Positions 2 to 18,469 of a DNA stretch of 41,045 nt are shown in pieces. A model generated the notes under the pieces. The model ran no database searches and was not told the DNA's origin. It worked only from the letters and a program-made list of their open reading frames with translations. How positions within the stretch are numbered: position 1 is the stretch's first letter; each line of letters starts with the position of its first letter. The translations under genes were made by a program, and so were the position numbers. Source of the stretch: Clostridia bacterium (lineage in GTDB: Bacteria; Bacillota; Clostridia; Oscillospirales; Acutalibacteraceae); contig JAGBAK010000046.1 of assembly GCA_017938985.1 (NCBI GenBank), positions 1 to 41,045 on the forward strand, in the 5' to 3' direction.

Positions 2-1354
2 TTGAAATTTGGGAATAAGACTTGTGAGCAACAGGTCTTATTTTTGTTTTTGATTTTTAATTGGTACACAGACGCTGCATGCACAACCAAGCTTGCAGAA
101 AATGCAACAGTAGGTGCACAGGTTGTTAACCTTTATGCAAAGACAACAGCAGGCACCTTCACAGCAAACTTCTGGCTTGACGATGCAAAGACAGAGCTTT
201 ACTACACAGCAAACGTTGTCTTTGATAAGGAAATCAGACTTCCCGACACCCTCGAAGCTCCCACAAAGACAGGTTATATCTTCGCAGGTTGGGATCCCTA
301 TGTTGGTCTTATGGACGAAGAAGGTAAAGACTTCGTAGCAATCTGGTATGAAAACGATGTAGTTACAGCAACATTCTATGTTGACGGTGCTGTATACGAA
401 ATGTTTGACAACCTTACCTACGGCGCAGAGATGGAAATTCCCGCTCCTCCCGTTAAGGCTGGTCACAGATTCGACGGCTGGGCACTTAAGGGCACAACAG
501 ACATCGTTGACCTTCAGGGCACAACAGTTCCTGCTGAATCAGTTGAATACGAAGCAATCTTCACAATCACAGAGTTCTATGTAACATATAACAACTATGT
601 AGCATCAGAATTCGGTCCTGCAGGCACACCCACTCCCGCATATGAAGCATATGCAATTGACGGTGTTGCAGTTAAGAATGCATACAATCTTAACGATGCA
701 ATCGTTCATCCCGCAGCTCCCGTTGTTGCTGTTATTAAGGACGGCACAACTCATACCGAATACTACACCTTCTCACATTGGGAAGATGCAGACGGTAATG
801 TTTGGGCAGACGGTGCAGCGATGCCCGCAAACGACGTAGCTCTTTACGCTAAGTATGACAGAGCAACTGTTCAGCTTGCTGTAGTTGAAGGTTCCACCGG
901 TGTCCTTGAAAAGGCAAACGCAACCGATATGGAACAGTGGTATGCATACGGCTTCGCCGGCAGACGTATCAACTCTGCTGAAGTTCCCAAGTTGTTCACA
1001 GTTCAGGGCGACGGTTACTATGTAATTGAAAACTCCGAGCTTTCAGGAACATTCGGCACAGGTGCAAAGATAGTTGTTTATGACCGTCTTACCAACGAGT
1101 TTGTTGAAGAATATTACATCATCATCTTTGGCGATGTTGACGGTAATGCACGTATCGACGTTAATGACTCGTCGGCAATGGTTACTGAACTTGCGTCACC
1201 CACATGGTCTAACAGAAGAAACGGCGTTCCTTACAGAATTAAGGCAGCCGACCTCGACCTCAACCGCAGAATCGATACTAACGATTCCACACGTCTTATT
1301 AATGCTATTGCAGGCGAAGTTTCAATAGACCAGACAACAGGCGAAGCTAAGTAA
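2..1354 (+). CDS. InlB B-repeat surface protein with C-terminal dockerin, 5' end missing
   Basis: This is the C-terminal part of a large secreted repeat protein. The frame is open from base 2, but the first 18 or so codons pass through the terminator-like hairpin and do not look like protein. Recognisable coding sequence starts near base 58 with the tail of an InlB B-type repeat (WYTDAAC). Three more repeats follow, marked by GYIFAGW, GHRFDGW and YYTFSHW. Nucleotides about 867-1129 encode a conserved module ending in GTGAKIVVYD and an IIIFGD strand. It is followed by a type I dockerin with two calcium loops, DVDGNARIDVND and DLDLNRRIDTND, both with acidic or Asn residues at positions 1, 3, 5 and 12. 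InlB repeats are beta-grasp adhesion or spacer units, and dockerins bind cohesins on scaffold or cell-surface proteins. No signal peptide is visible because the true 5' end is absent. The next gene downstream has the same C-terminal architecture, so this is the first of three tandem paralogues. Confidence 0.8.
   Translation: MKFGNKTCEQQVLFLFLIFNWYTDAACTTKLAENATVGAQVVNLYAKTTAGTFTANFWLDDAKTELYYTANVVFDKEIRLPDTLEAPTKTGYIFAGWDPYVGLMDEEGKDFVAIWYENDVVTATFYVDGAVYEMFDNLTYGAEMEIPAPPVKAGHRFDGWALKGTTDIVDLQGTTVPAESVEYEAIFTITEFYVTYNNYVASEFGPAGTPTPAYEAYAIDGVAVKNAYNLNDAIVHPAAPVVAVIKDGTTHTEYYTFSHWEDADGNVWADGAAMPANDVALYAKYDRATVQLAVVEGSTGVLEKANATDMEQWYAYGFAGRRINSAEVPKLFTVQGDGYYVIENSELSGTFGTGAKIVVYDRLTNEFVEEYYIIIFGDVDGNARIDVNDSSAMVTELASPTWSNRRNGVPYRIKAADLDLNRRIDTNDSTRLINAIAGEVSIDQTTGEAK
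14..52 (+). terminator. Rho-independent terminator-like hairpin at the left edge
   Basis: An 11-bp stem (14-24 pairs with 32-42, one T-G wobble, loop TGAGCAA) is followed by a T-rich tract from 41 to 52. It looks like a normal intrinsic terminator, but it lies immediately upstream of, and in frame with, the middle of a repeat-protein gene. That is an odd place for a terminator and suggests a junction near base 55-60. Confidence 0.6.
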
Positions 1355-1372
1355 ACAGGTTTATTAATTACA

Positions 1373-1404
1373 CCCGAAGAGGTAACTTAGGTTATCTCTT
1401 CGGG
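1373..1404 (+). other. Long stem-loop after the first repeat-protein gene
   Basis: A 14-bp stem (1373-1386 with 1391-1404, one G-T wobble, loop TTAG) lies 18 nt after the stop codon. It has no T-tract on either side, so it is more likely a transcript-stabilising or processing element, or a weak terminator, than a strong one. The rest of 1355-1504 shows no gene and no promoter I can defend. A ribosome binding site, GGGAGG, precedes the next start. Confidence 0.45.
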
Positions 1405-1504
1405 AAAACCAAAAAGCAAAAGGATATCCCTTGCAAATTTGGCTATTATGGGATTATTCCCATTTATATATGCAGTTCCAAAAATTAAGGGAGGAATAAC
1501 TTGC

Positions 1505-4500
1505 ATGAAAACATTCAAACGCACCCTTTCCGGTTTTCTTGCCTTGTTGATGGTTTTCAGCTCTTTCTCCGTTCTTGCCACTGCAGTCGAATTGGACGAT
1601 GGCAACAAAATTACGGCTGAATTCTACACCGATTTTTTTGTTCAGAACGATGAAGGAGTCTGGGAAAAGACAGATAAGGTTAAAGCCGGAAAAACGGTAA
1701 AAGCGAGAGTTTCAATTGAAACAGACTACGCTATAGGTTCTTCACAGGTTCTCTGGGTTTATAACAGAGAATTCTTTGAGTGGAGTGATGAAGGAATTGC
1801 CACCTTAAGCGAAGGTATTTATAATGCATCAAGCATTTTAAATCCCGATGAAAATGCAGCAGCAAGCAGCGTTGGCGGTTTCTTTACCCACAGAACCGAA
1901 GTTGTAGAATATGAACCTGCTGACGATATGATCTACGATGGTCTTGTACCTGGTGATTATTTCGATGACAAAGGCTGGTTTGCTTTAAACCTTAACCAAG
2001 GTGTTCCCGTAGAACTCAGCAAAAATGATTACTTTGTTGAATTCACATTCACAGTTAAGAAAGATGCACAGGGTGAGGGCTTCCTCTTTGTTCCCGTGGA
2101 GTCTATCAGAAGTCCCGAATGGTCTTATTCACCCACATATCTTCAGCGTGCTTCCGGTCCTGACAACCTCAACGTTAACGTTCCGGAACAGGCTATGAGT
2201 ATGCCTTATAATTTAATTCCCAAGGATACTAACACAATCAAGCTCTATTCAGAAACATCCACAACATATACACAGAACGTATATACAATGGATACAACGG
2301 GTAATTACAGCGCAGCTGCTGTAACAACAACACCCACAGCCGAAATCGGTTCAACAATCAACGCTGCAAGCTATACTGCTCCTGCAGGCTTCTCAGTTGA
2401 TACCGCAAAGAGCACAGCAGGCGACGTTACAATCGAAGATGAAGGCGTATCATCAATCGATATTTACCTCAGCAGAAACAAGTATAAAGTTACTTTTGAC
2501 GGTAAAGAAACCGAACAGTATTTTGATGCTGTAATCGTTCCCGAAACAGCAGAAGAAAAAGAAGGCTACACATTCGCAGGCTGGTATGCAGGCGAAACAA
2601 AGCTTACCGAAACAACAAAGGTTCCCGTTGACGGTGCGGCTTACACAGCTAAGTACACACCCAACGAAGTTGGTTACACAGTTAACAAGTACTTCATGAA
2701 CACTGACGGCGAAACATATGCAGATGCAGTTCCCGAAGCATTCCCCGGCAAAACAGGCGATGAAGTAACCTACTCAACAGAGGTTGAAGGCTTCACACTT
2801 GACAAAACACAGGGCAAACTTTCCGACACCGTAACAGGCGACGGCAAACTTGTTCTTGAGGCTTACTACACCCGTAACAAGGTTCAGGTAACAATCAACG
2901 GCAAGACAGAAGAGATGTACTACGGCGAAACAATCGATAAGCCTTCAGATCCTCCTGCAGACCCCGGTTATGAATTTGACAAGTGGGTTGACGAAAAAGG
3001 CGACGAAGTTAAGTGGCCTGTAACAGTTGGTACTGAAGATATCGTTATCGAACCTTCATTCAGCAAGCTTCCCAGAACAGTAACATATAAGTATGTTGGT
3101 GCTCCCTCAGGCTACGATGTTCCCGCTCCCAAGATCGCTTACATCGAAGATCCCATCGAGCTTCCCACACTTCCCACAGTTGAAGGCTACACCATCAGTG
3201 ATTGGGTAATCACAGATGCAAACGGTGACGCTATCACAGACGGCAAGGTTGGTACAACAGACGTAACAGTTACAGCAACCTGGACTCTCAACGCTTACAA
3301 GGTAACTCTTGACCTTGACGGCGGCGAAGCTGCTATCACATCAATCGCAAAGAACCACGGCGAAACTCTTCACGCTGACGAACTTCCCGATGTTGTTAAG
3401 GCAGGCTATGACCACCTCGGCTGGACAGTTGACGGTGCAGACGCAACATTCCCCATGACAATCAAGGGCGATGTTATTCTCAAGGCAAAGCTTGCTCTTC
3501 ATAACTACAGCATTACTTACGCATTCTCAGGCAACAAGCCTGCAAGCGTAGACGTTCCCGCAGCAACAACAGGCACAATGGGTTCAGCTATTCCCATGCC
3601 CACAATCACAGATCCCGAAGGCTATTCATTCGGCGGCTGGGTTGCAACAGATGCTGAAGGCAACGAAATCACAGACGGCAAGGTTGGCACATCAGATATT
3701 ACCGTAACAGGTAAGTGGACTCTCAACCGCCATGACGTATCATTCGCAACAGGCGTTGAAGGCACAACAATCGACACAATCACAAGACCTTACGGTACTG
3801 AAATTACAGCTCCCTCAACAGATATCTCTGCTCTTAAACCCGGCTACACATTCGGCGGCTGGAAGGATAAGGCAACAGGCAGCGTTGTAACGTTCCCGTT
3901 CTCAATGCCTGACAGAAACGTTGAACTTGAAGCTGTTTGGACAGCAACTCCCAGAACAATCACTTACGTTTACGTTGGCGCTCCCGAGGGCTATGAAGCT
4001 CCCGCAGCAAAGACAGGCGTAATCGGTGATACAATCGAACTTCCCGGTCTTCCCACAGTTGACGGCTACGCAGTAGGCAACTGGGTAATCACAGATGCAG
4101 ACGGCAACGCTATCACAGACGGTAAGGTTGGTCTTACAAACGTAACAGTAACATCAACATGGACAAAGAATGCTTACGTTGTAACATTCTGGCTTGACGA
4201 AGACGGCACAAAGGTTCACCACACCGAAAACTATACATACGGTCAGGCTCTTAAATATCCTGATGCTCCCAACGTTCCCGGCTACATCTTTGAAGCATGG
4301 TCAGAAGTTGAGGGCATGGAAGTAACAGAAGCACTTGACGTATATCCCATCTACAAAGCAATTGAATACAACGTAACAGTTCTCGGTCTCTACGGCGATA
4401 CAGTTGATGAATGGATTGCTTTCTACGGCGACGAAATCACTCTTGGCGACCTTCTCACCAAGGAAGAAATGGATCAGATGCTCGCTGATAACGGCGACTT

Positions 4501-7500
4501 CTATACATTTGATTTCTGGGCATATGACGGCGATGAAATCACAGATGAAACTGTTATCACTGTAACAGCAGACGTTGAAATCGAAGGTAACTTCACAGCT
4601 ATGGATGCAAAGCTTATCTTTGATGCAAACGGCGCAACATTTGCTGAAAGCGGTTCCGGCATCTACGAAGTTGAACTTCTCTATGATGACGAAATCACAG
4701 CAAATATGTATCCCGCAATCCCCACATACGAAGGTCACACCTTCAAGGCATGGAGCCTTGACCTTGTAGGTCAGCCCATGGACGAACTCGAAAAGACAAT
4801 CTCCATCACATGGACAAAGAACACTTATAACGTTAAGTTCGTTAACGGTCTCACAGGTGAAGAAATCGAAACCGTAACAGGCGAGTACGGCGACGCTGTT
4901 GAAGCTCCCGCTCTTCCCGTAGTTGCAGGTTATACCTTTGCTTGGGATAACACCGTAACATCAATCCCCGCTAAGAACGAAAAGGGCGAAGTTATGGCAG
5001 CAGGCGGCACAATGACAGTTACCGCTGTTCCCACAGCTAAGACCTATGCAGTTAACTACTACGTTGACGGCGAGATCTATAACACCCTTACCGTTGCATA
5101 CGGCAAGCCCGTTGAATCAATCGCAGCTCCCGCAGCAGGCGATCTTCCCAGCGGTTACTCATTCCTCGGCTGGAGCCTTGATGCTGCTGCAACTCTTCCC
5201 GGCAACCTCGGCGTAGTCGGTGACGGCGACGTTAACGTTTATGCAGTTCTTCAGGCAAACGGCGACGTAGCTTATAAGGTAGAAATCTACCAGCAGAAGC
5301 TTGAAGGCGGCTATGAGCTTGTTGATACAGAAGAATTCACAAACGGTACAACAGGTAAGGTTGCTCCTTACGTAGTTGACCAGAACGTTGAAGGCTTCGT
5401 ATTCAACGAAGGTGCTTCAGTTCTTGACACACCCGTTGCAGGCGACGGCTCAACAGTTCTTAAGGTTTACTATGACCGCAAGACAATCACTGTTGACATC
5501 AACGGCGACAAGCAGGATGTTCCCTTCGGAACAGAAATCGACCTTCCCAACGACGTTGATGACGGCGACGAAGGCACAGAGTTTGATAAGTGGGTTGACG
5601 AAGACGGCAACGAAGTAAGCGATCCTTACATTGTTCCCGATTCAGATGAACCCGTTGTTATCACTCCCGTATTCACAAACAAGGAATTCACAATCACATA
5701 TTATAGGGACGGCGCTTCCGTCTATAGCCAGAAGGTAGCTTATAAGGCAGACGTTGAACTTGCTTACGGCGGTTCTTATATGCCCGATGGTTACGTATTC
5801 ATCGGCTGGACACTTACTGAGGGTTCAGACGAAATCGCAACAATCGACACAATGCCTGCTCACGACGTAGATCTCTATGCTATCTACGAAGCAGACACAG
5901 TCATCGAATACACAGTTGAATTCTACAAGCAGAACCTTGAAGGCGGCTATGAACCTGCCGGCACAGAAACATATCATGACGGCACAACAGGTGAAGAAGC
6001 TCCCTATGTTGTTGACGAAGATAAGTTTGAAGGCTTCGTATTCAACGCAGATGCATCAATCCTTGATACACCTGTTGCAGGCGACGGCACAACAGTTCTT
6101 GAAGTTTACTATGACCGCAAGACAATCAAGGTTCAGATTGGCGACAACGAACCCGTTGATGGTCCCTTCGGAACAGAAATCGACCTTCCCGATGACGTTG
6201 ATGACAAGGATCCCGGCACAGAGTTTGATAAGTGGGTTGACGAAGACGGCAACGAAGTAACCGATCCTTATATCGTTCCCGATTCAGAAGACGGTACACC
6301 CGTTGTTATCACTCCCGTTTATAAGAACAACTCCTTCGACGTAACATTCGTTGATGAACTCAACGGTACAACAAAGACAAACAGCTACGAATACACAACA
6401 AAGATCCCGAATCCCGGTTCACCCAGCGCAGTAGGCTATGAGTTCAACGGCAGGTTCACCAAGGACGGCGACAAGTATGTAGCAGGTACAACAACAGTTC
6501 CCAACGCAAACGTAACTTACTATGCTAAGTACACAGGTCTTCCCGTAACTTACATTGTTAACGTTTACTTCGAGAAGCTTGACGGCAAGGGTTGGGAAGA
6601 CGTTCAGTCCACAGTTGTTGACGGTGTAGCAGGCGAAACAGCTAAGTACACCGAAACATTCGAAGGCTTCACACTTGATAATGATATCTCCACAACAGAA
6701 GCTACTATCAAGGGCGACAGCTCAACAGTTCTTGTTATCTACTTCACCAGAAACGATGTAACAATCACCGTTGACGGCGAAGAAAAGGATGTTCCTTACG
6801 GCACAGAAGTTGATGAAGACGATCTCAAGCCCGACGTTGAACCCGGCTACAAGGTAGACAAGTGGGTTGACGGCGAAGGCAACGAAATCACATTCCCCGT
6901 TGAAATCAAGGGCGGCGAAGAATTCATCCCCGTAATCGTTAAGGAAACATACTCACTCATCTTCAGACTTGCTGACGGCACAGTTGTTGAAGAAACAGCA
7001 GCAGTTGAATTCGATTCAGAAATCACTGCTCCTCAGGCTCCCGAAGCTGCTGAAGGCTACACCTTCGCAGGTTGGGTAGACGCAGCAACAAACGAACCCT
7101 TCAACGGCAAGATGCCCGCTAAGGCAACAGTTTACGTTGCAGTTTACACAAACAACGAAGCTGCTAATTACACAGTTAACATCTACATCATGAACACAGA
7201 AGGCGTTGAAGAACTCTCCGGTTCTTACACCGCAACAGCCGCTATCGGCACAACTCAGTCAGTTGTTCCCGGCAAGGTTGACTTCTGCACTCTTGACACA
7301 GCCAAGAGTAACACAAGCTGCGTAGTTCTTGCAGACGGCACAGCTTCCATCAACCTCTACTTCGTAAGAGGTCTCTACACAGTAAGCTTCGACGGCGTTG
7401 AAACTTCCGTTTATGCCGGCGCAGTTATCCCCGTACCCGCAGATCCCGCAGTTGAAGGCAAGACCTTCCTCGGCTGGACACCTGCAATTCCCAATGTAAT

Positions 7501-8404
7501 GCCTGAAAACGATCTCGAATTCACATCAACTTGGGAAGACGTAACTTACACAATCACTTACGTTGTAAACGGCGACAAGATCGTTCATAACTACAAGTTC
7601 GGCGATACGGTTACCGCTTATGAAGTAACAGAAGCTCCTGCAGGTCTCACATTCAAGGGCTGGTCAGACACCGTTCCCGCAACAATGCCTGCAGAAAACA
7701 TTACCGTTTCCGCAATCTTCGAGGCTGCTGCATACACAGTAACCTACCTTGATGCAGAAGGTAACGTATTCGTATCCTACTCAGTTGCATTCGGCGCAGA
7801 AATTCCTGTTCCCGCAGACGCACCTGCTAAGGAATTCTACACCTTCAAGGGTTGGTCAGCAGCACCCGCAACAATGCCTGCTGAAAATATCACAATCGAG
7901 CCCATCTTCGAGCCCGTTCCTGTTCGTCTTATTGCCGCTCCCGGTTCAACAACCGTTATCGACAGAGACAACATGGTAATCTACGGTCTTGACATCGGTC
8001 TCTCAGCTAAGATTCTTGACGATAACTTCCTTGATTACGAAGGCGACGGTACTCTTGTTATCAAGCCCGTAACAGAAGGCACAAGCAGATACGGCACAGG
8101 CGCTGTTGTTGAACTTTATGACAACGCCGACGGTTCACTCGTTGAAACATTCCATATCGTTGTATTCGGCGACCTTAACGGTGACTCACATGTAAACGGT
8201 CTTGACGTTTCCATCGCTTCTGACGAAGCATTCTGGATCACTGACTGGTCAATTGAAGGCGAAAACTTCGAGGCTTACAAGCTCATCGCAGCTGACCTTG
8301 ACCACAACGGCTTCATCGACACAACAGATGTTTCCAACATCAAGAACTACGTACTCAGCCTTGTTGAAATCGATCAGGTAGCAGGCAAAGTCGTTCGCTC
8401 CTAA
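1505..8404 (+). CDS. Giant secreted InlB B-repeat protein with cohesin-like N-terminus and C-terminal dockerin (2299 aa)
   Basis: The ATG at 1505 is chosen because GGGAGG lies about 10 nt upstream and a classic signal peptide follows at once (MKTFKRTL, hydrophobic core, cleavage around residues 26-28). An in-frame extension to 1439 lacks these signs. Residues about 35-240 form a beta-rich module with KVKAGKTVKARV, VLWVYNREFFE and FVEFTFTVKKD, resembling the strand pattern of cohesins (inference). From about 250 to 2135 I count roughly 21 InlB B-type repeats by their GYxFxGW signature. About six units of the form YxVxxY...GFxLD...VLxVYYxR, MucBP-like, are interleaved. Residues about 2138-2220 are the conserved pre-dockerin module. 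G2222 onward is a type I dockerin with DLNGDSHVNGLD and DLDHNGFIDTTD. The protein is strongly acidic and has no LPxTG, SLH or terminal membrane segment, so attachment would have to go through the dockerin or another partner. Likely role: cell-surface adhesin or structural fibre; substrate unknown. Confidence 0.85.
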   Translation: MKTFKRTLSGFLALLMVFSSFSVLATAVELDDGNKITAEFYTDFFVQNDEGVWEKTDKVKAGKTVKARVSIETDYAIGSSQVLWVYNREFFEWSDEGIATLSEGIYNASSILNPDENAAASSVGGFFTHRTEVVEYEPADDMIYDGLVPGDYFDDKGWFALNLNQGVPVELSKNDYFVEFTFTVKKDAQGEGFLFVPVESIRSPEWSYSPTYLQRASGPDNLNVNVPEQAMSMPYNLIPKDTNTIKLYSETSTTYTQNVYTMDTTGNYSAAAVTTTPTAEIGSTINAASYTAPAGFSVDTAKSTAGDVTIEDEGVSSIDIYLSRNKYKVTFDGKETEQYFDAVIVPETAEEKEGYTFAGWYAGETKLTETTKVPVDGAAYTAKYTPNEVGYTVNKYFMNTDGETYADAVPEAFPGKTGDEVTYSTEVEGFTLDKTQGKLSDTVTGDGKLVLEAYYTRNKVQVTINGKTEEMYYGETIDKPSDPPADPGYEFDKWVDEKGDEVKWPVTVGTEDIVIEPSFSKLPRTVTYKYVGAPSGYDVPAPKIAYIEDPIELPTLPTVEGYTISDWVITDANGDAITDGKVGTTDVTVTATWTLNAYKVTLDLDGGEAAITSIAKNHGETLHADELPDVVKAGYDHLGWTVDGADATFPMTIKGDVILKAKLALHNYSITYAFSGNKPASVDVPAATTGTMGSAIPMPTITDPEGYSFGGWVATDAEGNEITDGKVGTSDITVTGKWTLNRHDVSFATGVEGTTIDTITRPYGTEITAPSTDISALKPGYTFGGWKDKATGSVVTFPFSMPDRNVELEAVWTATPRTITYVYVGAPEGYEAPAAKTGVIGDTIELPGLPTVDGYAVGNWVITDADGNAITDGKVGLTNVTVTSTWTKNAYVVTFWLDEDGTKVHHTENYTYGQALKYPDAPNVPGYIFEAWSEVEGMEVTEALDVYPIYKAIEYNVTVLGLYGDTVDEWIAFYGDEITLGDLLTKEEMDQMLADNGDFYTFDFWAYDGDEITDETVITVTADVEIEGNFTAMDAKLIFDANGATFAESGSGIYEVELLYDDEITANMYPAIPTYEGHTFKAWSLDLVGQPMDELEKTISITWTKNTYNVKFVNGLTGEEIETVTGEYGDAVEAPALPVVAGYTFAWDNTVTSIPAKNEKGEVMAAGGTMTVTAVPTAKTYAVNYYVDGEIYNTLTVAYGKPVESIAAPAAGDLPSGYSFLGWSLDAAATLPGNLGVVGDGDVNVYAVLQANGDVAYKVEIYQQKLEGGYELVDTEEFTNGTTGKVAPYVVDQNVEGFVFNEGASVLDTPVAGDGSTVLKVYYDRKTITVDINGDKQDVPFGTEIDLPNDVDDGDEGTEFDKWVDEDGNEVSDPYIVPDSDEPVVITPVFTNKEFTITYYRDGASVYSQKVAYKADVELAYGGSYMPDGYVFIGWTLTEGSDEIATIDTMPAHDVDLYAIYEADTVIEYTVEFYKQNLEGGYEPAGTETYHDGTTGEEAPYVVDEDKFEGFVFNADASILDTPVAGDGTTVLEVYYDRKTIKVQIGDNEPVDGPFGTEIDLPDDVDDKDPGTEFDKWVDEDGNEVTDPYIVPDSEDGTPVVITPVYKNNSFDVTFVDELNGTTKTNSYEYTTKIPNPGSPSAVGYEFNGRFTKDGDKYVAGTTTVPNANVTYYAKYTGLPVTYIVNVYFEKLDGKGWEDVQSTVVDGVAGETAKYTETFEGFTLDNDISTTEATIKGDSSTVLVIYFTRNDVTITVDGEEKDVPYGTEVDEDDLKPDVEPGYKVDKWVDGEGNEITFPVEIKGGEEFIPVIVKETYSLIFRLADGTVVEETAAVEFDSEITAPQAPEAAEGYTFAGWVDAATNEPFNGKMPAKATVYVAVYTNNEAANYTVNIYIMNTEGVEELSGSYTATAAIGTTQSVVPGKVDFCTLDTAKSNTSCVVLADGTASINLYFVRGLYTVSFDGVETSVYAGAVIPVPADPAVEGKTFLGWTPAIPNVMPENDLEFTSTWEDVTYTITYVVNGDKIVHNYKFGDTVTAYEVTEAPAGLTFKGWSDTVPATMPAENITVSAIFEAAAYTVTYLDAEGNVFVSYSVAFGAEIPVPADAPAKEFYTFKGWSAAPATMPAENITIEPIFEPVPVRLIAAPGSTTVIDRDNMVIYGLDIGLSAKILDDNFLDYEGDGTLVIKPVTEGTSRYGTGAVVELYDNADGSLVETFHIVVFGDLNGDSHVNGLDVSIASDEAFWITDWSIEGENFEAYKLIAADLDHNGFIDTTDVSNIKNYVLSLVEIDQVAGKVVRS
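5267..5692 (+). repeat. Internal DNA duplication, copy 1
   Basis: About 425 bp encode a MucBP-like unit (from YKVEIYQQKLEGGYE to VYYDRK), followed by an InlB-type unit with GTEFDKWVDEDGNEV and YIVPDS. A closely matching copy lies about 210 bp further on. Similarity is high at both DNA and protein level (for example PFGTEIDLP and FDKWVDEDGNEV shared exactly), pointing to fairly recent intragenic duplication. Confidence 0.7.
5902..6329 (+). repeat. Internal DNA duplication, copy 2
   Basis: This is the second copy of the unit at 5267-5692. It encodes YTVEFYKQNLEGGYE through GTEFDKWVDEDGNEV and YIVPDSEDGTPVV. Differences are concentrated in the linker and in a few substitutions; the InlB-type core is nearly unchanged. 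The 210 bp between copies encodes a single ordinary InlB repeat, so the duplicated block may have been a two- or three-repeat unit. Confidence 0.7.
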
Positions 8405-8415
8405 CCTCTGACATT

Positions 8416-8520
8416 ATTCGCGGGGAGGGGAGAGTCTCTTCTCCCCGTGAATTAGAGATATGTCACGCAAGAGTGGCGGCACACCACTCTTTGACTCCGG
8501 CTCACAGCACAGAACCGGAG
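8416..8520 (+). promoter_or_regulatory. Structured leader: three successive hairpins before the third repeat-protein gene
   Basis: The 139 nt between the two giant genes contains three consecutive stems. The first is a 16-bp stem with wobbles, 8416-8431 with 8437-8452, whose core is CGGGGAG/CTCCCCG. The second is a perfect 8-bp stem, 8469-8476 with 8484-8491. The third is a 6-bp stem, 8495-8500 with 8515-8520. The last ends 7 nt before the AAGGAGG ribosome binding site. None is followed by a T-tract. The arrangement could stabilise or process a long mRNA or control translation of the downstream gene. I do not recognise it as a known riboswitch. Confidence 0.5.
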
Positions 8521-8543
8521 AAATAACAAGGAGGAATTCTCTC

Positions 8544-11500
8544 ATGACAAAAATCAAAAGGTTAGTCGCTGTTGTACTGGCTTTATTGATGATTTTTGGT
8601 TCAGTTTCAATCGTTGCTTCCGCTTGGGATGCAACTACTGACGACGGTTTTACGTTAAACGTAAACACAAAAATCTTCAGACAAGTTGACGGCGAATGGA
8701 TCGAAACTACCAAAGTTAAAGCAGGCGAAACGGTAAAGGCAAGAGTATATCTCGGAACAGATTATTTTACCAACGGCGGCGACCTCTTATTCTTCTATAA
8801 CACAAGCTTCTTTGAGGATGCTTATTCAAGCGACCTTCAGACACTTGCTGTTAACACCGCTGTTTATGCCGGCGGTAATTATGGTATTACCGGCACTTTC
8901 TATAACTCACTGTCCGCAACAAACGTTGAAGGCAGACTTGTAAGACTCGGCGTTATTGATCAGAATTTCGCTGATAAACACAACTATTTTGCAGTGAGCT
9001 TCTCACTTGCAGGCGATAAGAAGAACAATCTTTTACTCGCAAATGAATGGTTCTGCGAATTTGACCTCAAGGTTAAGGCAGACGCAAGCGCTGCTGATGC
9101 AGGCGATATGTTTGCTCTTGCAAACACATTCAGAAGTGACGCAGTTAAAACAAACTACTGCAATATTTCCAAGGGTCCCTCATTCGGCTACAACGAAGAT
9201 GTAGTTGATATGACACAGTGGAATGCAACCGTATCGGTTGCAAGCCAGCCCGTTACTCTTTACACAAACTACGTTGAAGCAACCTTTGATGCAAACGGCG
9301 GTGTATTTGCTGACGGCGAAGCTGAAAAGGTTCTTACAGGCGAAGCCGGCACGGCTCTCAATGTAGGCGCACCCGTTTACGAAGGCTTCACCTTCAAGGG
9401 TTGGGTAGCTGAAGGCACAACAGAAGTTCTTCAGGACGTTGTTGCTCTTCCCCAGGCAAACGCAACTTACGTTGCACAGTGGGAATCAGCAGTTGACAAG
9501 TATGACGAAACTCTCGGTTTCAGAACAGAAATCTACAGACAGAACGATAACGGCGAATGGGTATTCACTGAAAAGGTAATCCCCGGCGAAACAGTTAAGG
9601 CAAGAATTTTCATCGACACCACTTATTTCACCAATGCCGGTGACTTCGTTGTGTTCTATGATAACGATTTCTTTGAAGAAGTTGACCCCAACTTCACAGA
9701 AGGTTCTTACACAGACCTCGTAACAAATGATTCCGCAACAAGCTCAGCAGCTATCGTTGCTGCAGAAGGCACATATTCACTTGTTCCTTCTTCGGCAAGA
9801 GTTATCAAGAGACTTGTTGAAGCAGGTCACATCACACAGGATTTTGCTGAAACACACACAGCATATCTTGCAACCTATAAGTTTGTTCCTGCAAACAGTG
9901 CAGTTCTCAGCGGCGACGAATACTTCGCAGAATGGGAACTCAAGGTTAAGGATTCCGCAACAGGCGAAGGCGATTTCTTTGTAGTTGAAGAAACTATCCA
10001 GAACGCAAGCGCTGCAGGCCAGAAGGCTTATATCAACATCCCCCTCAGCTATGAAGGCGGCACAGATGACGATTCAATCTCACTCTTCGAGGTTAACGTT
10101 AATACTGAAGTTGAAAGCAATCCCGTAACCACAGTCAGCGCAATCAACTTTGACGCTAACGGCGGCGAATTCGCAACAGGCGAAACAACGTTCGTTATCG
10201 AAGGCGACATTGCTGATCCCGTTGATGCAGCAACAATCCCCGAAGTAACCAAAGACGGTTATACATTCATCGGTTGGGTTCCTGCAGACCTTGCAGATCC
10301 CACAGAAGCAGACGTTGTTGACGTTCCCACAGAGATTCCCTTTGATGAACTCTTCCTCAAGGCTCTCTGGATCAACGAAGTTACAATCACAATCGACCCC
10401 TCAAACGGTGATCCCATCATTGAAGAGACCGTAACAGCAGGCGATCCTTTCGATAAGCCTGAAGATCCCTCCAAGGAAGGTCATTATCTTGCAGGTTGGG
10501 TTGACGGTGACGGCAACTTTATGACAGAGCTTCCCGATAACTATCCCGCAGAGGATACAACCTACACAGCAGTATTTGAAACATACACTTACACAGTTGA
10601 GTACTATGTTCTCAATTCTGAAACACTTAAGTTTGACAGAGTTGCAGCTGTAAACACAGCTTACGGTGAAGAAATTCTTGCAGTTCCTCCCACATACACA
10701 CTGCCCGAAGGCTTCACACTCAGTGCAGCTTACACAGACATTTCTTTCACAAACGCATTTGCAGCCGGCACAACAATGCCTGCTGACAACGTTCAGCTTT
10801 ACTACCAGGCAGTAGCTAACAAGTATCCCGCAACCTTCGATCTTGACGGCGGTAACATTGACGGTAACACAGACGATGTTGTTATCGAAACCATTTACGG
10901 CCAGCAGATCAAGACTCCTGCAGACCCCGTTAAGGAAGGCCATACCTTCACAGGTTGGACTCCCATGGTTGGTATGATGGATTCCGAAGGTGCTGACTTC
11001 ATCGCTACTTGGGAAGTAAACGATTACACAGCAACCTATATCGTTGAAGGCAAAGTTTATGAAGCATATGACATTCCCTTCGGCGGTGAAATGGAAACTC
11101 CCGCAGCTCCCGTTCTTGAAGGTTATAACTTTGTAGGTTGGGATCCTTCACCCATTCCCGCAACAATGCCTGCTGAAGATCTTACCTTCACAGCAGTGTT
11201 CGAGAAGAAGGATATCACAATCACTCTCAAGCTTGACGGCGGCGAATACGACGGCGATCCCGCTGATATCGTAATCGCAGGCAAGTACGGTGATGCTGTT
11301 ACAGCTCCCGATGCAGCTCTCCTTGCTAAGGAAGGCTACGTATTCGGCGGTTGGGAACCTGCTCTTCCCGATGCACTTCCCGCAGAAGATGCTGAATACA
11401 CAGCAATCTGGAATCCCGCAACCGATACACCTTATCAGGTATGGGTATATCTTGAAAACACAGACGGCACATTCCCTGCAGACGATGCTCCCAGCCAGGT

Positions 11501-14366
11501 TATCAATATGACAGGCGTGACTGACTCTGTTATCAATGTTGCTATCCCCACTCCCTATGGCTTCGTTCTTAACGAAACAAAGGGTGACGTTGCAAACGAT
11601 GTAACAATCGCTGCTGACGGCTCAACAGTTTATAAGATTTACTTTGACAGAGAGAAATACGATATCAAATTTGACGGCAACGGCGGCACAATCGCCGGCG
11701 AGCCCTCAACAACAGATGAATACCGTTATCTCGCTTCCGTAACTGCTCCTGCAGAAGCTGACCTTTACAAAGAAGGATACACCTTCCTCGGTTGGACTCC
11801 CTCAGTTGACAGCGAAGCAACAAAGGACGTAACATACGTTGCACAGTGGGAAGTTAACTCCTATGACGTTAACTACATGATCAAGGGTGCAGACGGCGCT
11901 GAAGACGAACTCTTCAAGACCGAGTCCTTCAACTATGGCGATGCTCTCACCGTAACAGCTGATAAGCCCGAAAAGACAGGTTACAGCTTCGGCGGTTGGA
12001 CAGATGAAAACGGCGCAACTTATAGGTTCCCCGCAACAATGCCCGCTGAAGACATCACCGTTTATGCAAAGTTCACTCCCAGAAACTATGAAGCTAAGTT
12101 CTATGAAGAAGCTGATGCTGATGCTCCCTATGACATCACAAACGCTGACTTCGACGCTCCCGTTGAAGCTCCCGCATCACAGCCCTCCAAGGAAGGCTAT
12201 GAATTCGGCGGCTGGTCAACAGACGGCGTAACACCCGTTGATTTCACAAAGGAAATCATGGATGAAGAAGGCAAGGACTACGTAGCAATCTGGAACGCAG
12301 CAGAACAGGATATCCCCGTTGAGTATTATTACATGGATACAGACGGCACATATCCCGCAGCAGCTGATAAGACAGAAACCGTTAAGTTCAAGACAGGCGA
12401 AACAGCAACAGTAGCTCCCGCTGATGAAGCAAACTACACAGTTGATGCTGACAAGTCAGTTCTTGAAGCAGTTGTAGCAGCTGACGGTTCAACCGTTCTT
12501 AAGGTTTACTACAAGCTTAACTCCACAAAGCTCACCATCGAAGTTGATGGCGAAGAAACAGTTATCGAAGGTCTTGTTGGTTCAGACGTTCCTGCAGACA
12601 AGATTCCTGATACTGACAAAGACGGTTACACCTTCAACGGCTGGGTAGACGAAAACGGCGATCCCGTTGACGTTCCCGCAACAATGCCCGAAGAAGACAC
12701 AACCATCAAGGCTGATTACAGCATAAACAGCTACAACGTAACATATTATGTTGACGGCGAAATTTATGACGGCCCCAATTCTACAGAGTTTGGTGCTCCC
12801 ATTGCTGAGCCCTCAACTCCCACAAAGGTTGGCTATTCATTTGCCGGTTGGCTTGATGATGCAAACCACAAGCCCAGTGATTACGGCGTAATGCCCTCAA
12901 CAGACCTCGAATTCTATGCACAGTGGACTGCTAACGCAAACATTGGCTACGTTCTCGAAGTTTACGAAATGGGTACAGACGGCACATATCCCGCAACTCC
13001 CACAACAGTTTATAACTTCAATGACGGCGTTGTAGGCGATGAAAGAACTGTTACACCTACCGTTCCCACAGGCTTCACACTTGACGTTGAAACAGAAAAC
13101 ACTGCAGAAAAGAGCGTTCTTACAGGTAAGATCCCTGCAACAGGTACTCTTGTTCTTAAGGCTTACTACACCAGAGATCAGTATACACTCTATATTGACG
13201 TTGACGGTGACGTAACAGAAGAAGTTTACTATTATCAGCAGGAAATCGCTGACATCGCTGATCCCGTTAAGAAGGGCTGGACCTTCACAGGTTGGGAACC
13301 CGAAGTTCCCGCAACAATGCCCGCTAACGACGTAACAGTTGTTGCTCAGTTCACAAAGAACTCCTATCCTGCATCATTCAACGCAGGTGAAGGCGCATTC
13401 GCAACAGGCGATAAGACTGTTGAAACCGACGTTCCTTATGCAGAACCCATCACAGCTCCTGCAAACAACCCCGTAAGAGACGGTTATAACTTCAAGGGCT
13501 GGTCAACAGACGGAACAAACGTAATTGAAAACCTCGGCAGAATGGACGATGACGGCGCTGAATTCATCGCTGTTTGGGAAAAGGCTGAAGTTACAGTAAC
13601 ATTCTATAACTACCTGCCCTCAGAAAAGGGTCCCGCAGTTCCCGACGGTCAGGCAACATACGTTTATGATCAGGCAACCTATCTCTACGGCGAAACAGTA
13701 GTATTCCCCGCTGATCCCACAATCCAGGGTCACGAAGATCACTACGTATTCATCGGTTGGGTAGATGCTGACGGTAACGCAGTTGAACCCGGTATCACAG
13801 CTCCTTCCGCAAACCTTGACATCTATGCATCATATGAAAGAGTTAAGGTTATGCTTATCCCCAAGAACGACACTTGCACAACAGTCATCGACAGAGCAGG
13901 TCTCACAGTTGATGATTACACAGCAGACAGCGAGTGGTATGTATACGGTCTTGAAGAGATCCTTTCACTGAATCTTCTTCTCAACGAATACATTGACGTT
14001 CAGGGCGACGGCAAGATCGTTGTTACAAAGATCAAGGATAACAGTAAGTACTACGGTACAGGCTCAATCATTGATGTTTACGATAACGTAACAGGCGAGC
14101 TTGTTGAAAGCTTCAGAATCGTCATCTTCGGCGATATCGACGGTGACTCCTATGCAAACGGCGTTGACCTTTCAATCCTCTCCGAAGAAGTTCTCAGCCT
14201 TACATACTGGTCAATCGACGGCGCTGATGAATATTGCGCATATAAGGTTAAGGCAGCAGACCTCCGTCCCGACGGCGTAATCGACGTTCAGGATAAGGCT
14301 CTCCATAACAAGCACGTTCTCAGCCTTGGTTACATCAACCAGGAAACAGGTCTTGTTGAAATGTAA
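8544..14366 (+). CDS. Giant secreted InlB B-repeat protein with two cohesin-like modules and C-terminal dockerin (1940 aa)
   Basis: The start at 8544 follows AAGGAGG with 9-nt spacing and opens a signal peptide (MTKIKRLVAV, hydrophobic stretch, cleavage near ASA-W at residue 27). A longer frame from 8460 would run through the hairpins and is rejected. Residues about 36-242 and 334-545 are two copies of the N-terminal module found once in the upstream protein; all share the pattern GxTVKARxxxxTxY and YxxxFFE. One InlB repeat separates them. About 13 further InlB B-type repeats (GYxFxGW) and about four MucBP-like units follow. The C-terminus (from about 1775) has the conserved pre-dockerin module, then a dockerin from G1863 with DIDGDSYANGVD and DLRPDGVIDVQD. 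The second loop has Arg instead of Asp/Asn at position 3 (R1908), which should weaken calcium binding. There is no wall-anchoring motif. It is a paralogue of the gene before it and probably co-expressed with it; the ligand is unknown. Confidence 0.85.
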   Translation: MTKIKRLVAVVLALLMIFGSVSIVASAWDATTDDGFTLNVNTKIFRQVDGEWIETTKVKAGETVKARVYLGTDYFTNGGDLLFFYNTSFFEDAYSSDLQTLAVNTAVYAGGNYGITGTFYNSLSATNVEGRLVRLGVIDQNFADKHNYFAVSFSLAGDKKNNLLLANEWFCEFDLKVKADASAADAGDMFALANTFRSDAVKTNYCNISKGPSFGYNEDVVDMTQWNATVSVASQPVTLYTNYVEATFDANGGVFADGEAEKVLTGEAGTALNVGAPVYEGFTFKGWVAEGTTEVLQDVVALPQANATYVAQWESAVDKYDETLGFRTEIYRQNDNGEWVFTEKVIPGETVKARIFIDTTYFTNAGDFVVFYDNDFFEEVDPNFTEGSYTDLVTNDSATSSAAIVAAEGTYSLVPSSARVIKRLVEAGHITQDFAETHTAYLATYKFVPANSAVLSGDEYFAEWELKVKDSATGEGDFFVVEETIQNASAAGQKAYINIPLSYEGGTDDDSISLFEVNVNTEVESNPVTTVSAINFDANGGEFATGETTFVIEGDIADPVDAATIPEVTKDGYTFIGWVPADLADPTEADVVDVPTEIPFDELFLKALWINEVTITIDPSNGDPIIEETVTAGDPFDKPEDPSKEGHYLAGWVDGDGNFMTELPDNYPAEDTTYTAVFETYTYTVEYYVLNSETLKFDRVAAVNTAYGEEILAVPPTYTLPEGFTLSAAYTDISFTNAFAAGTTMPADNVQLYYQAVANKYPATFDLDGGNIDGNTDDVVIETIYGQQIKTPADPVKEGHTFTGWTPMVGMMDSEGADFIATWEVNDYTATYIVEGKVYEAYDIPFGGEMETPAAPVLEGYNFVGWDPSPIPATMPAEDLTFTAVFEKKDITITLKLDGGEYDGDPADIVIAGKYGDAVTAPDAALLAKEGYVFGGWEPALPDALPAEDAEYTAIWNPATDTPYQVWVYLENTDGTFPADDAPSQVINMTGVTDSVINVAIPTPYGFVLNETKGDVANDVTIAADGSTVYKIYFDREKYDIKFDGNGGTIAGEPSTTDEYRYLASVTAPAEADLYKEGYTFLGWTPSVDSEATKDVTYVAQWEVNSYDVNYMIKGADGAEDELFKTESFNYGDALTVTADKPEKTGYSFGGWTDENGATYRFPATMPAEDITVYAKFTPRNYEAKFYEEADADAPYDITNADFDAPVEAPASQPSKEGYEFGGWSTDGVTPVDFTKEIMDEEGKDYVAIWNAAEQDIPVEYYYMDTDGTYPAAADKTETVKFKTGETATVAPADEANYTVDADKSVLEAVVAADGSTVLKVYYKLNSTKLTIEVDGEETVIEGLVGSDVPADKIPDTDKDGYTFNGWVDENGDPVDVPATMPEEDTTIKADYSINSYNVTYYVDGEIYDGPNSTEFGAPIAEPSTPTKVGYSFAGWLDDANHKPSDYGVMPSTDLEFYAQWTANANIGYVLEVYEMGTDGTYPATPTTVYNFNDGVVGDERTVTPTVPTGFTLDVETENTAEKSVLTGKIPATGTLVLKAYYTRDQYTLYIDVDGDVTEEVYYYQQEIADIADPVKKGWTFTGWEPEVPATMPANDVTVVAQFTKNSYPASFNAGEGAFATGDKTVETDVPYAEPITAPANNPVRDGYNFKGWSTDGTNVIENLGRMDDDGAEFIAVWEKAEVTVTFYNYLPSEKGPAVPDGQATYVYDQATYLYGETVVFPADPTIQGHEDHYVFIGWVDADGNAVEPGITAPSANLDIYASYERVKVMLIPKNDTCTTVIDRAGLTVDDYTADSEWYVYGLEEILSLNLLLNEYIDVQGDGKIVVTKIKDNSKYYGTGSIIDVYDNVTGELVESFRIVIFGDIDGDSYANGVDLSILSEEVLSLTYWSIDGADEYCAYKVKAADLRPDGVIDVQDKALHNKHVLSLGYINQETGLVEM

Positions 14367-14836: not shown

Positions 14837-16942
14837 TCAGCTGTTGAGCATTGCGTCCTTATATCTTTCAAAAAGTCTTCTTGCTTCATCAACCGTGTTT
14901 TCTTCCGAGGGAGCTTCAGGGTTAACGGTGGATAGCCATTTCTTTTCAAACTCGGCATATCTCTTGTAGAAATCGTTGCCTCTGTATATGTTTCGTTCAC
15001 AATGCTGTTTTCTTGTTGTGGTTGAGAAAAGTCTCCTCTTGGGGAATTCATATGCAAGACGTTCAAAGAAGCTCTGCCAACGCTTTGCATAATACGTTTT
15101 CATAAGACCTCCCCATTCTTTCCAGGCGTAATCATAGTTCACACTGTTGCTGAACGGACCCCAGATTGTGAGCTGAACAAGCAGGTTGAGTTCAAAGTTT
15201 TCCTTGTCCTTTTCTGTAAATGCAAGCTCACCTGCTTCCTTAAGGTGCTCATAAAGAGTCAGCTCGGGTCTTGTCTGAAGCAGTCCGTCAAGCTCTTCGC
15301 AAAGCTTGAGGAAAGCGTTTGACGAACGTTCAAAAATCTTAACGTCTTTGTTTTTGTAGCCGTACATAACGTTATCATAAAGAGTGCCTGCGTAGTTACT
15401 CATAACCTGTCTCACAAGGTCGCAGGCATCATAGGCATAGCCATCCTTGCTTGCGTTTTCGGCGTTCAGAAGAAGTTCGGTTGCCTTGATAAGCGTTTTG
15501 TTATCGTAACGGAGCTCTCTGAAATCGTTGGGTGCGGTGTGGCGCAGGTCTGTTGCAGGTCTTGCGCAGATAACCGAGCCCGTCTCTCTGCCGGTACAGT
15601 TTTCGCTGTAGCAGCTTTGGCTCAGCAGAAGCATAGCATCGGCGAGGCATCTTTCGCGGCTGCCGTAGCGACGGTATGCATAGTTGCGCAGCCATTCCTC
15701 AAGGTCAACCGCTTTGTCTTCGGTCATCATCTGGAAAGCAAGGTCAAAATAGAGGGGATTCTGCATAATGCCCTCCATAAACAGACCCGTACCCACGCAG
15801 TTTTCGCTGCCTTCGGTCAGATATTTGTTATCGGCAAGCGCCTTGATGCTGCCGTGCAGAGTGTTTCTGTCACCGAAATTCTGCAGAGTGCCGAGAATGT
15901 AATCATATCCCCAGAATTCGTTTGTTTCCTTGTGCTTTGAGCCGTCAATGTCAAGAATAAGCAGTTTATCCTTGGACACAGCCTTAACTATTTTTTCGCG
16001 CAGTGACCAGCTTTGCATAACCCATACGGCGTCCTTATCAAACTCAGTATACATTGAGCTGATTTCGTAGCCGACCTTGAAAAGGTAATCCCTTGTTTTA
16101 ACAGAGGGTTCGTTTTCGTGGAAGGGGTCGCAGGCGTAATAATGATATGCGCCGAAAAGCTGACGCTGTTTTTCAAGCAGAGCCTTTCCGAACTTTTTAA
16201 ACAGTGGGTCAGTCGGGTCAAGCTGATAGGTAAAGGGGAAGTTGCACCACGAGGGGATAAGACGCAGCTTTGCTTTTTTGAAAAGCTTTGTAACGCTCTG
16301 AGGCACAGTGCCCGTGTAGCCCTGTTGAATGGGGGTCATGCCGAGCTCAACCTCACGGTCAATAATCCTTTTGCCAAGCTCAACACGGCTCTCAATATAT
16401 TTAACGTCTGTCAGGCTGAAATAGCCCGTGATGTTTGTCATAAGCTGCCACGGCCAGAAGCCGGGACCTGAAATGAACTGCATTGCGCCGTTCTCGCTGT
16501 AAGTGAAATCACGCAGTGTGTAATACCAGACTGCCTCTGTGCCAACAACGCTCAGGGGCATGTTGATGCCGTTCATCGCCATAAAGTCAATTTCTTTTTC
16601 CCATTTATCCCATTTCCAGTAAGCAAAGGAATAGCCGAAGGTGCAATAGTTGAGGTATGCCCTCTTTTTCTGGGGGATAATCTTTTGAAGTCTGCCTTCA
16701 AAAAGGGGAGCGGAGCTTACGTTGATTTCTCTGTTGCCGCAGTGCGAAAGGTTAACGCCGCAATAGGTTTTGAGGTATTCATAGTAACCCATTGCCTGGC
16801 TGATTTTGCAGTCGCCGCAGATAACGATTTTGTCATTTTCGCAAAACACGTCAAAGGTGTTTTTACCGTCAACAGGCTCAATTGTGCGCAGTTCAAATAT
16901 ATCGGCAATTTCGGGTGTATTTCTGAGAATCAGGTTTTTCAA
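14837..16942 (-). CDS. Alpha-N-acetylglucosaminidase, glycoside hydrolase family 89 (701 aa)
   Basis: GH89 enzymes release terminal alpha-linked N-acetylglucosamine, for example from heparan sulfate or from alpha-GlcNAc-capped mucin glycans. The family landmarks are present: MNGINMPLS and GTEAVWY near residues 123-140, GPGFWPWQ at 159-166, CDPFHENEP around E276 and GTGLFMEGIMQNP around E390. By alignment from memory with human NAGLU (E316, E446) these two glutamates are the catalytic pair. The length fits the core family without accessory carbohydrate-binding modules. The start is TTG at 16942: AGGAG lies 9 nt upstream, while the nearby ATG at 16949 is out of frame. There is no signal peptide, so the enzyme is predicted to be cytoplasmic and to act on imported oligosaccharides, unlike the secreted clostridial forms. 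It is a single-gene unit with its own promoter and terminator. Confidence 0.92.
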   Translation of the reverse strand: MKNLILRNTPEIADIFELRTIEPVDGKNTFDVFCENDKIVICGDCKISQAMGYYEYLKTYCGVNLSHCGNREINVSSAPLFEGRLQKIIPQKKRAYLNYCTFGYSFAYWKWDKWEKEIDFMAMNGINMPLSVVGTEAVWYYTLRDFTYSENGAMQFISGPGFWPWQLMTNITGYFSLTDVKYIESRVELGKRIIDREVELGMTPIQQGYTGTVPQSVTKLFKKAKLRLIPSWCNFPFTYQLDPTDPLFKKFGKALLEKQRQLFGAYHYYACDPFHENEPSVKTRDYLFKVGYEISSMYTEFDKDAVWVMQSWSLREKIVKAVSKDKLLILDIDGSKHKETNEFWGYDYILGTLQNFGDRNTLHGSIKALADNKYLTEGSENCVGTGLFMEGIMQNPLYFDLAFQMMTEDKAVDLEEWLRNYAYRRYGSRERCLADAMLLLSQSCYSENCTGRETGSVICARPATDLRHTAPNDFRELRYDNKTLIKATELLLNAENASKDGYAYDACDLVRQVMSNYAGTLYDNVMYGYKNKDVKIFERSSNAFLKLCEELDGLLQTRPELTLYEHLKEAGELAFTEKDKENFELNLLVQLTIWGPFSNSVNYDYAWKEWGGLMKTYYAKRWQSFFERLAYEFPKRRLFSTTTRKQHCERNIYRGNDFYKRYAEFEKKWLSTVNPEAPSEENTVDEARRLFERYKDAMLNS

Positions 16943-17126: not shown

Positions 17127-17199
17127 ATATTATGTGCAATTATAAACTGCGAAAAGTGCGGCTGATTGCACGGTGAATATTTTTAAAGGCGGTGTTTTA

Positions 17200-17910
17200 A
17201 TGAAACCTGTTTATAAACGAATTCTTCTCAAGCTCAGCGGTGAAGTTCTTTCGGGCGCTCAGGGTCACGGCTTTGACTTTGACACAATCAACACCATCTG
17301 CACAGCGGTTAAAAAGGTCAGCGACCTTGGCGTTGAAATCGGTCTCGTAGTCGGCGGCGGCAACTTCTGGAGAGGTCGCTCGGGCGGCAGTATGGAAAGA
17401 ACAAGAGCCGACAGCATCGGTATGCTTGCAACCGTTATGAACTCCCTTGCTCTTGCTGAAGTGCTTGAGCAGCTTGGCGTTGAGGTCAGAGTTCAGAGCG
17501 CAATCGAAATGCCCAAGGTAGCCGAAACCTTTGTTCGCAACAATGCAGTGCGTCACCTTGAAAAGGGCAGGGTTGTTATTTTTGGCGGCGGTACGGGAAA
17601 TCCGTTTTTCTCAACCGATACCTGCGCAGCTCTCAGAGCGGCAGAAATCAACGCAGAAATCATTTTTAAGGCAACCAACGTTGACGGCGTTTTTGATAAA
17701 GACCCCAACAAGTTTGACGATGCGGTCAAATATGACGTTGTTACTCACACCGAAGTTCTTGAAAAGAACCTTAAAGTTATGGATTCAACGGCAGCTTCAC
17801 TTTGCCGTGACAATAACATATCAATTCTCGTGTTTAACCTTGAAGACCCTGAAAATATCGTAAGGGCGATTCTCGGCGAAAACATCGGCACAATAGTTAA
17901 GGAGGGCTAA
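17200..17910 (+). CDS. pyrH: UMP kinase
   Basis: It phosphorylates UMP to UDP with ATP in pyrimidine nucleotide synthesis; bacterial PyrH is a hexameric amino-acid-kinase-fold enzyme in the cytoplasm. Visible family motifs are KLSGE near the N-terminus, [26 protein letters not shown] and the nucleotide-binding [12 protein letters not shown], with [12 protein letters not shown] towards the end. The length of 236 aa is standard. ATG 17200 is preferred over an upstream in-frame GTG at 17173 because the purine-rich AAAGGCGGTG sits at the right distance and the homologous N-terminus begins here. The frr ribosome binding site lies inside the last codons, so the two are translationally close. In many Firmicutes rpsB-tsf precede pyrH; here they do not. 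Confidence 0.95.
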
Positions 17911-17914
17911 GCCT

Positions 17915-18469
17915 ATGCAAACCGTATTCAACACAGCAGAAGAAAAAATGAGCAAAACCGTGAGCGTTCTTAATCACGAATATGCCGCAATCAGAGCAGG
18001 CAGAGCAAACGCCTCTGTTCTCGACAAAATCAAGGTTGATTATTACGGCACACCCACACCCATCAACCAGATGGCGGCAGTATCTGTTGCGGAAGCAAGA
18101 ATTCTTACAATTCAGCCGTGGGACACCTCAACACTTCATCCCATCGAAAAGGCAATTATGGCTTCGGATATCGGCATCAATCCCCAGAACGACGGCAGAA
18201 TCATCCGCCTTGTTTTCCCCCAGCTTACTGAGGATCGCCGCCGTGACCTTTGCAAGGACGTAAAGAAGATGGCAGAGGATTCAAGAATTGCCATTCGCTC
18301 CATCAGACGTGACTGCATTGATAAGGTTAAGAAGATGGAAAAGGCATCTGAAATCACAGAGGACGACCTTAAGCTTGCTGAAAAGAAGCTTCAGGATTTC
18401 ACTGATAAGTATATCAAGGAAATTGATAAGGCAGCAGAAGCAAAAGAAAAGGATATTATGGAAATCTGA
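17915..18469 (+). CDS. frr: Ribosome recycling factor
   Basis: RRF works with EF-G to split post-termination ribosomes. The 184-aa length and motifs are typical: an N-terminal helix, EYAAIRAGRANASVLDKI, VDYYGTPTPINQMA, LTIQPWD and RRDLCKDVKKMAEDSRIAIRSIRRD. The start follows the pyrH stop by 4 nt, and AAGGAGG overlaps the pyrH 3' end (9-nt spacing). Expression is expected to be high and coupled to pyrH. Confidence 0.96.
   Translation: MQTVFNTAEEKMSKTVSVLNHEYAAIRAGRANASVLDKIKVDYYGTPTPINQMAAVSVAEARILTIQPWDTSTLHPIEKAIMASDIGINPQNDGRIIRLVFPQLTEDRRRDLCKDVKKMAEDSRIAIRSIRRDCIDKVKKMEKASEITEDDLKLAEKKLQDFTDKYIKEIDKAAEAKEKDIMEI

Follow-up and report, generated by a model that had tools for sequence, protein, structure and literature searches.

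Tandem giant proteins with divergent cohesin-like heads and X-like module/dockerin tails on InlB-type stalks in a Clostridia bacterium

Introduction

Cohesins and dockerins are known chiefly as the clips of cellulosomes, and cohesin/dockerin proteins outside cellulosomes occur in Archaeoglobus. Here, we describe an array of three giant genes at the left end of a 41,045-base stretch of DNA from a Clostridia bacterium (hereafter the window, which is one entire contig, G000:C15, of a genome 81% complete in 138 contigs). The two complete products carry N-terminal cohesin-like modules (N-modules), and all three end in an X-like module followed by a dockerin.

Adaptor scaffoldins include the "monovalent adaptor", with one cohesin and a dockerin (PMC11557425), and ScaC of Ruminococcus flavefaciens (PMC5934362), while anchoring scaffoldins carry an LPxTG signal and some Ruminococcus cohesins are too divergent for the Pfam model PF00963 (PMC11557425). 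Like adaptor scaffoldins (PMC11557425, PMC5934362), the present proteins are secreted, contain no enzyme and unite a dockerin with one or more cohesin-type modules, and their relatives include cohesin-type proteins with a sortase-like signal. Unlike them, the proteins of this genus are about 1,200 to 3,600 residues long, with an InlB-repeat body and cohesins under the Pfam cut-off. X-module/dockerin pairs with type III cohesins are described in R. flavefaciens (CttA/ScaB with ScaE/CohG) and R. champanellensis (XMod-Doc:CohE) (PMC7456326, PMC5934362), including anchoring under force (PMC7456326); shared with these dyads is a beta-rich module immediately N-terminal of the dockerin.

Anaerobic methanotrophic (ANME) archaea and Archaeoglobus resemble the present case in having docking modules, including proteins with both dockerin and cohesin, in organisms without known cellulose degradation. 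The cohesins of ANME archaea, which have dockerins as well, differ in reaching Pfam/CDD level, and the available part of the source mentions neither an InlB stalk nor a sortase-linked base (PMC9012536). The Limousia mucinolysome likewise belongs to a gut bacterium and comprises cohesins, dockerins and a scaffoldin with a sortase motif (PMC12997984), but it has dockerin enzymes and multi-cohesin scaffoldins. Internalins and other surface proteins with InlB B-repeats (List_Bact_rpt) share the Flg_new repeat stalk; unlike internalins, the three giants had no leucine-rich-repeat family in a Pfam scan and end in a dockerin, not a sorting signal. Among the titles listed by literature searches that covered few subscription papers, none linked dockerins to InlB repeats in Clostridia of the gut, and none described InlB-repeat giants built like these.

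Results

The three genes lie on the same strand with spacings of 150 and 139 bases (Table 1). Open frames span 2-1354, 1439-8404 and 8460-14366; the first lacks an upstream stop and is truncated by the contig start, and the head of gene 1 lies outside the contig. The likely starts of genes 2 and 3 are the ATG codons at 1505 and 8544, each preceded by a GGAGG site and followed by what by eye is a signal-peptide-like N terminus. Flg_new (InlB B-type) repeats were matched in 4, 16 and 14 stretches of genes 1, 2 and 3, with scores of 62.6, 260.2 and 299.1 bits (cut-off, 27). At E≤1, the giants matched neither an enzyme nor an SLH family, and no C-terminal sorting signal matched by sequence pattern, the proteins stopping shortly after the dockerin. 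These results and the C-terminal comparison below confirm the observation of a first-pass annotation of this DNA, which had described three tandem giants with a common C-terminal module and dockerin and without enzyme, LPxTG or SLH. Its description of the bodies held for the InlB B-type repeats, whereas the MucBP-like repeats were dropped, as no MucBP family appeared at E≤1. Promoter and terminator scans gave nothing beyond chance.

Residues 16 to 447 of gene 1 align at 66% identity to residues 3139 to 3573 of a 3,576-residue frame in genome G044 (95% complete), where four such genes stand in tandem, each of the four with an N-module and an X-like module/dockerin (X-dockerin). This comparison shows the window array as the apparent last three positions of a four-gene row like that of G044.

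A profile search with the last 160 residues of gene 2 recovered a common unit in gene 3 (44% identity, E 2.9e-34) and gene 1 (35% identity, E 3.2e-16). A two-loop type I dockerin had been assigned to all three proteins; Pfam Dockerin_1 (PF00404; cut-off, 22.9) upheld this for genes 1 and 2, both with two calcium-type loops, at 23.3 and 26.7 bits, but not for gene 3, which scored 15.8 bits and has a degenerate second loop (DLRPDGVIDVQD). The predicted structure has the dockerin fold. Four X-dockerin frames were found in the source genome (81% complete), two of them truncated at a contig end, and none of the four carried an enzyme family, a difference from adaptor scaffoldin systems, from the mucinolysome and from cellulosomes, which are marked by dockerin-bearing glycoside hydrolases.

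As for the heads, the N-module of gene 2 matches both copies in gene 3 (E 1.2e-17 and 1.0e-14). The first-pass annotation had likened this module to a cohesin, and structure prediction of gene 3 N-module 2 agreed: the predicted fold is a cohesin jelly-roll, with an insert of about 55 residues, and the 47 top fold matches among those listed were all cohesins. The best match by VIA was 4wkz_B; a model of the X-like module plus dockerin weakly matched 4wkz_A, and the two are chains of one complex, a further likeness to X-module/dockerin dyads. In profile-profile comparison with 27 cohesins, a deep N-module profile gave P values of 1.1e-5 and 7.8e-7, with controls at P≥0.49. Significance was reached with this deep profile only, as 18 rows gave P 0.18 against 2 cohesins and P 0.014 against 27. 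From these folds and profiles, the N-module is very probably homologous to cohesins.

Several results temper this assignment. Among the matches listed, Foldseek template modelling scores were moderate (at most 0.47 by model length and 0.69 by target length), and the Z margin of cohesins over the first non-cohesin fold was small. No window protein matched Pfam Cohesin (PF00963) at E≤1, nor did the folded N-module at E≤10; among seven singly scanned N-module proteins, three had a match at E≤0.05, all under the cut-off. Because it falls below the curated cut-off of PF00963, we term the N-module a divergent cohesin homologue and not a Pfam member. Against PDB sequences, the single sequence returned one antibody chain (E 0.82) and the 18-row profile nothing, and a scan of a viral collection gave 17 pattern matches but no relative.

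The broken loop 2 and sub-threshold score of the gene 3 dockerin are what would be expected if N-modules and some dockerins had lost binding through divergence, leaving plain repeat proteins. This is very unlikely, as the frames are intact and both ends are conserved in eight genomes, with 14 invariant columns across 18 N-modules and 20 across 16 X-dockerins.

Seven relatives found through the N-module are metagenome-assembled genomes (MAGs) named "Clostridia bacterium" from the rectum, colon or caecum of sheep, goat, water buffalo, roe deer and water deer. The genus sample comprised 45 genomes, including the source, of which 15 are near-complete (≥90% complete, ≤5% contaminated). A 5-row profile detected N-modules in 37 of the 44 other genus genomes and in the source genome, and in 1 of 74 further relatives; a 132-row profile detected them in 41/45 (15/15 near-complete). 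Dockerins were present in 44/45 and sortase in 42/45, each in all 15 near-complete genomes. Pfam cohesin matches were found in 14/45 (7/15 near-complete), those of G018 and G008 being N-module frames.

The C termini of N-module proteins were surveyed in 111 regions from the 5-row search; 13 listed frames of <280 residues were excluded, two of which returned within neighbouring regions, and in five regions no module passed the local threshold. With the source genome, this yielded 112 distinct frames (one from G061, outside the genus), 15 of them truncated before the end. The 97 complete-ended frames comprised 38 with an X-dockerin, 23 with a sortase-like signal (usually an IPxTG motif ahead of a hydrophobic stretch and basic residues) and 36 with various tails, whose classes, assigned by loose regular expressions (WWQ tails fell under "other", and a G009 frame was apparently misfiled as a PK tail), were not used. 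The same N-module therefore stands on C termini of two recognisable kinds, the X-dockerin as plug and the sortase-like signal as putative anchor to the wall.

Other C termini recur as well. An amphipathic FFQKIISFFKNLF-like tail followed by 10 to 20 residues was observed on both N-module and ordinary cohesin proteins (L176, L199, L233, L234). A conserved tail, WWQxIIRILLLGFLWY or QWIIIIVLFGWIWY, ends otherwise unlike surface proteins, among them a BspA-type leucine-rich-repeat/Big_3 protein in the window (38759-41044, minus strand) and N-module proteins at L016 (741-5543, minus) and L268 (2255-3265, minus); this tail possibly serves in envelope attachment or as a sorting signal.

A search of the source genome for cohesin scaffolds, as the first-pass annotation had proposed, found one frame, C69, with two Pfam cohesins and a truncated 5' end. 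At 12 mapped genus loci (L230-L239, L241, L242), such ordinary cohesins lie within or adjoin a dockerin frame (recognised at L237 by a local profile only), and several of these dockerins score well above those of the window. Over 214 residues, the C69 cohesins share 50% identity with a protein of G031:C91, which has a dockerin gene upstream. This layout suggests that ordinary cohesins and their adjoining dockerins form a pair separate from the X-dockerin system. A minimal ordinary cohesin-dockerin protein, a 247-residue frame with one Pfam module of each kind, was observed in G021 (L241, 3396-4136, minus).

These loci bear on the reading of the giants as stalked adhesins, in which the cohesin-fold N-module would be a ligand-binding tip on an InlB stalk, the C terminus would be an exchangeable anchor, be it a sortase signal, a hydrophobic tail or an X-dockerin, and the dockerin would dock on an ordinary cohesin elsewhere. 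We regard this as rather unlikely. The top fold matches of the N-module were cohesins; dockerins occur without any Pfam cohesin in 8 of the 15 near-complete genus genomes (9 with G018, whose sole match is an N-module frame); and the ordinary cohesins at the mapped loci have their own dockerin frame, the C69 homologue likewise being partnered. The argument that X-dockerins have no ordinary partner extends to this genus only, since Pfam cohesins occur in 202/300 family genomes.

Gene neighbours pair the two modules in various ways. In G018, a gene for a 3,074-residue N-module/X-dockerin protein is followed by one for an 871-residue N-module protein with a sortase-like signal; in both G012 and G030, the gene after an X-dockerin gene encodes a double N-module protein with a signal of this type. 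Three regions of genus g169 have an N-module/dockerin gene and, next downstream, an N-module gene whose product ends in a hydrophobic WIWY-type tail. In a sample of the family that included genus g1, N-modules were found in 35/300 genomes and 16/135 genera, and 14 genera carry both modules. Twenty regions of other genera, picked mainly for short N-module frames, were examined with G061. In 12 of the resulting 21 regions, a large X-dockerin protein with no N-module match lies 6 to 159 bases upstream of a 361- to 430-residue protein made up solely of N-module, X-like module and dockerin (modules by local profiles; the upstream protein's 5' end lay outside the region, and one short protein was truncated by its contig). 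Gene pairs of this kind in other genera have the layout expected of an adaptor scaffoldin plus partners. N-modules were present in 29/34 genomes with two or more X-modules, 3/37 with one and 3/229 with none, and, counted by genus, in 12/15 versus 4/120 (Fisher p 1.6e-11); this association is partly built in, many proteins carrying both modules, genomes within a genus are not independent, and both searches are assumed to have used the same 300 genomes, as their handles suggest.

The 12 pairs would also fit branched adaptors that do not polymerise, with N-modules recruiting X-dockerin cargo such as a 1,700- to 1,840-residue dockerin protein of the genus and the giants' own dockerins sitting on sortase-linked N-modules; X-dockerin proteins without an N-module occur in the genus too. 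Such branching is unlikely: no N-module gene lies within 5 kb downstream of the large dockerin gene of the source genome (C23), and the window array, apart from the missing head of gene 1, and the complete G044 array consist of N-module/X-dockerin giants only.

The 1,700- to 1,840-residue type, secreted and ending in an X-dockerin, was observed in G004, G017 (two), G024, G023 and G006 (loci L226, L227, L228, L229, L244 and L245) and, truncated, in G000 (L019, 4993-7722, minus), and dockerin frames of comparable length are present in many genus genomes. In the two scanned (L229, L019), a dockerin was the sole family over the cut-off.

Elsewhere in the window, a NAGLU-type alpha-N-acetylglucosaminidase gene (14837-16942, minus) adjoins the array, and a BNR_2 (sialidase-like) protein is encoded at 37175-38392 (minus); together they hint at host or mucin glycans. 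Between them lies a housekeeping run (17173-27790, plus) resembling, by eye, pyrH, frr, uppS, cdsA, dxr, rseP, ispG and polC.

Table 1. Features of the array (window coordinates; pLDDT, predicted local distance difference test)
Feature	Position	Strand	Basis
Gene 1, 3' part of giant protein, 450 residues visible: Flg_new repeats, X-like module, dockerin	2..1354	+	Open reading frame, Pfam scan, G044 match
X-like module of gene 1	866..1135	+	Profile/alignment
Dockerin of gene 1	1130..1309	+	Pfam scan
Gene 2: signal-peptide-like N terminus, single N-module, Flg_new repeats, X-like module, dockerin	1505..8404	+	
N-module of gene 2 (probable divergent cohesin)	1592..2266	+	E 1.4e-44 with 132-row profile that contains this module
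Flg_new (InlB B-type) stalk of gene 2, limits approximate	2267..7918	+	Pfam scan
X-like module of gene 2	7919..8173	+	Profile/alignment
Dockerin of gene 2	8168..8356	+	Pfam scan
Gene 3: signal-peptide-like N terminus, two N-modules, Flg_new repeats, X-like module, degenerate dockerin	8544..14366	+	
N-module 1 of gene 3	8616..9284	+	Profile search
N-module 2 of gene 3; folded part 9498-10124, pLDDT 95.1	9474..10160	+	Structure prediction, profile search
Flg_new (InlB B-type) stalk of gene 3, limits approximate	10161..13841	+	Pfam scan
X-like module of gene 3	13842..14135	+	Profile/alignment
Dockerin of gene 3, under Pfam cut-off, loop 2 degenerate	14130..14315	+	Pfam scan, alignment

Discussion

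Genes 2 and 3 combine cohesin and dockerin in a non-catalytic protein, as adaptor scaffoldins do, if the N-module is counted as a cohesin and the weak dockerin of gene 3 is accepted. We propose, at about an even chance, that genes 1 to 3 encode secreted, enzyme-free, adaptor-type scaffoldin-like giants that dock on each other and on sortase-linked N-module bases through N-module/X-dockerin contacts. The N-terminal modules, as divergent cohesins, would serve as sockets and the X-like module plus dockerin at the C terminus as the plug, with the InlB-type repeats forming a long stalk between them. N-modules would accept X-dockerins of the same system, so that a giant would plug into another giant or into a sortase-linked N-module protein serving as base, and the outcome would be a surface fibre or network. 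That the N-module is the receptor for X-dockerins is the part we moderately favour. Head-to-tail chaining, which accounts most simply for giants that have both ends, is put forward tentatively, and a fibre, a non-covalent polymer of giants reaching about 3,600 residues in which each X-dockerin would sit in the divergent cohesin head of the next above a sortase-linked cohesin base, is possible rather than probable. The first-pass annotation's interpretation of the array as a cohesin/dockerin docking system is partly supported.

A number of observations weigh against docking of this kind, beginning with the sub-threshold dockerin of gene 3. N-modules frequently stand on proteins without a dockerin (59/97), and therefore their ligand may differ. 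No N-module frame bearing a sortase signal was found in the source genome by pattern and profile search (81% complete), and in the G018 base the Pfam cohesin is marginal, at 22.8 bits (24.7 with neighbours), and absent from an hmmscan of the full protein. Among the other genera, the neighbourhood regions were themselves selected for short N-module frames, and the dockerin of the G061 adaptor went undetected by Pfam at E≤0.05. In the family, 39 of 71 X-positive genomes have no N-module match, including 34 of the 37 with a single X-module. Given how common Pfam cohesins are in the family, and C69 in the source genome, X-dockerins could use ordinary cohesins; one frame, G020:C12 (L230), carries three Pfam cohesins, two more dockerin-like stretches and an X-dockerin, and possibly links the two systems.

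The locus points to a cohesin family mostly missed by the Pfam model and paired in one polypeptide with an X-dockerin on very large adhesin-like stalks, carried by hindgut Clostridia known through MAGs. If the two ends bind, they would offer a non-covalent route to long surface structures in Gram-positive bacteria, could account for dockerins in genomes without recognised cohesins, and would provide new docking pairs. Should the fibre reading be true, this would be a cohesin-dockerin system serving structure and adhesion instead of enzymes.
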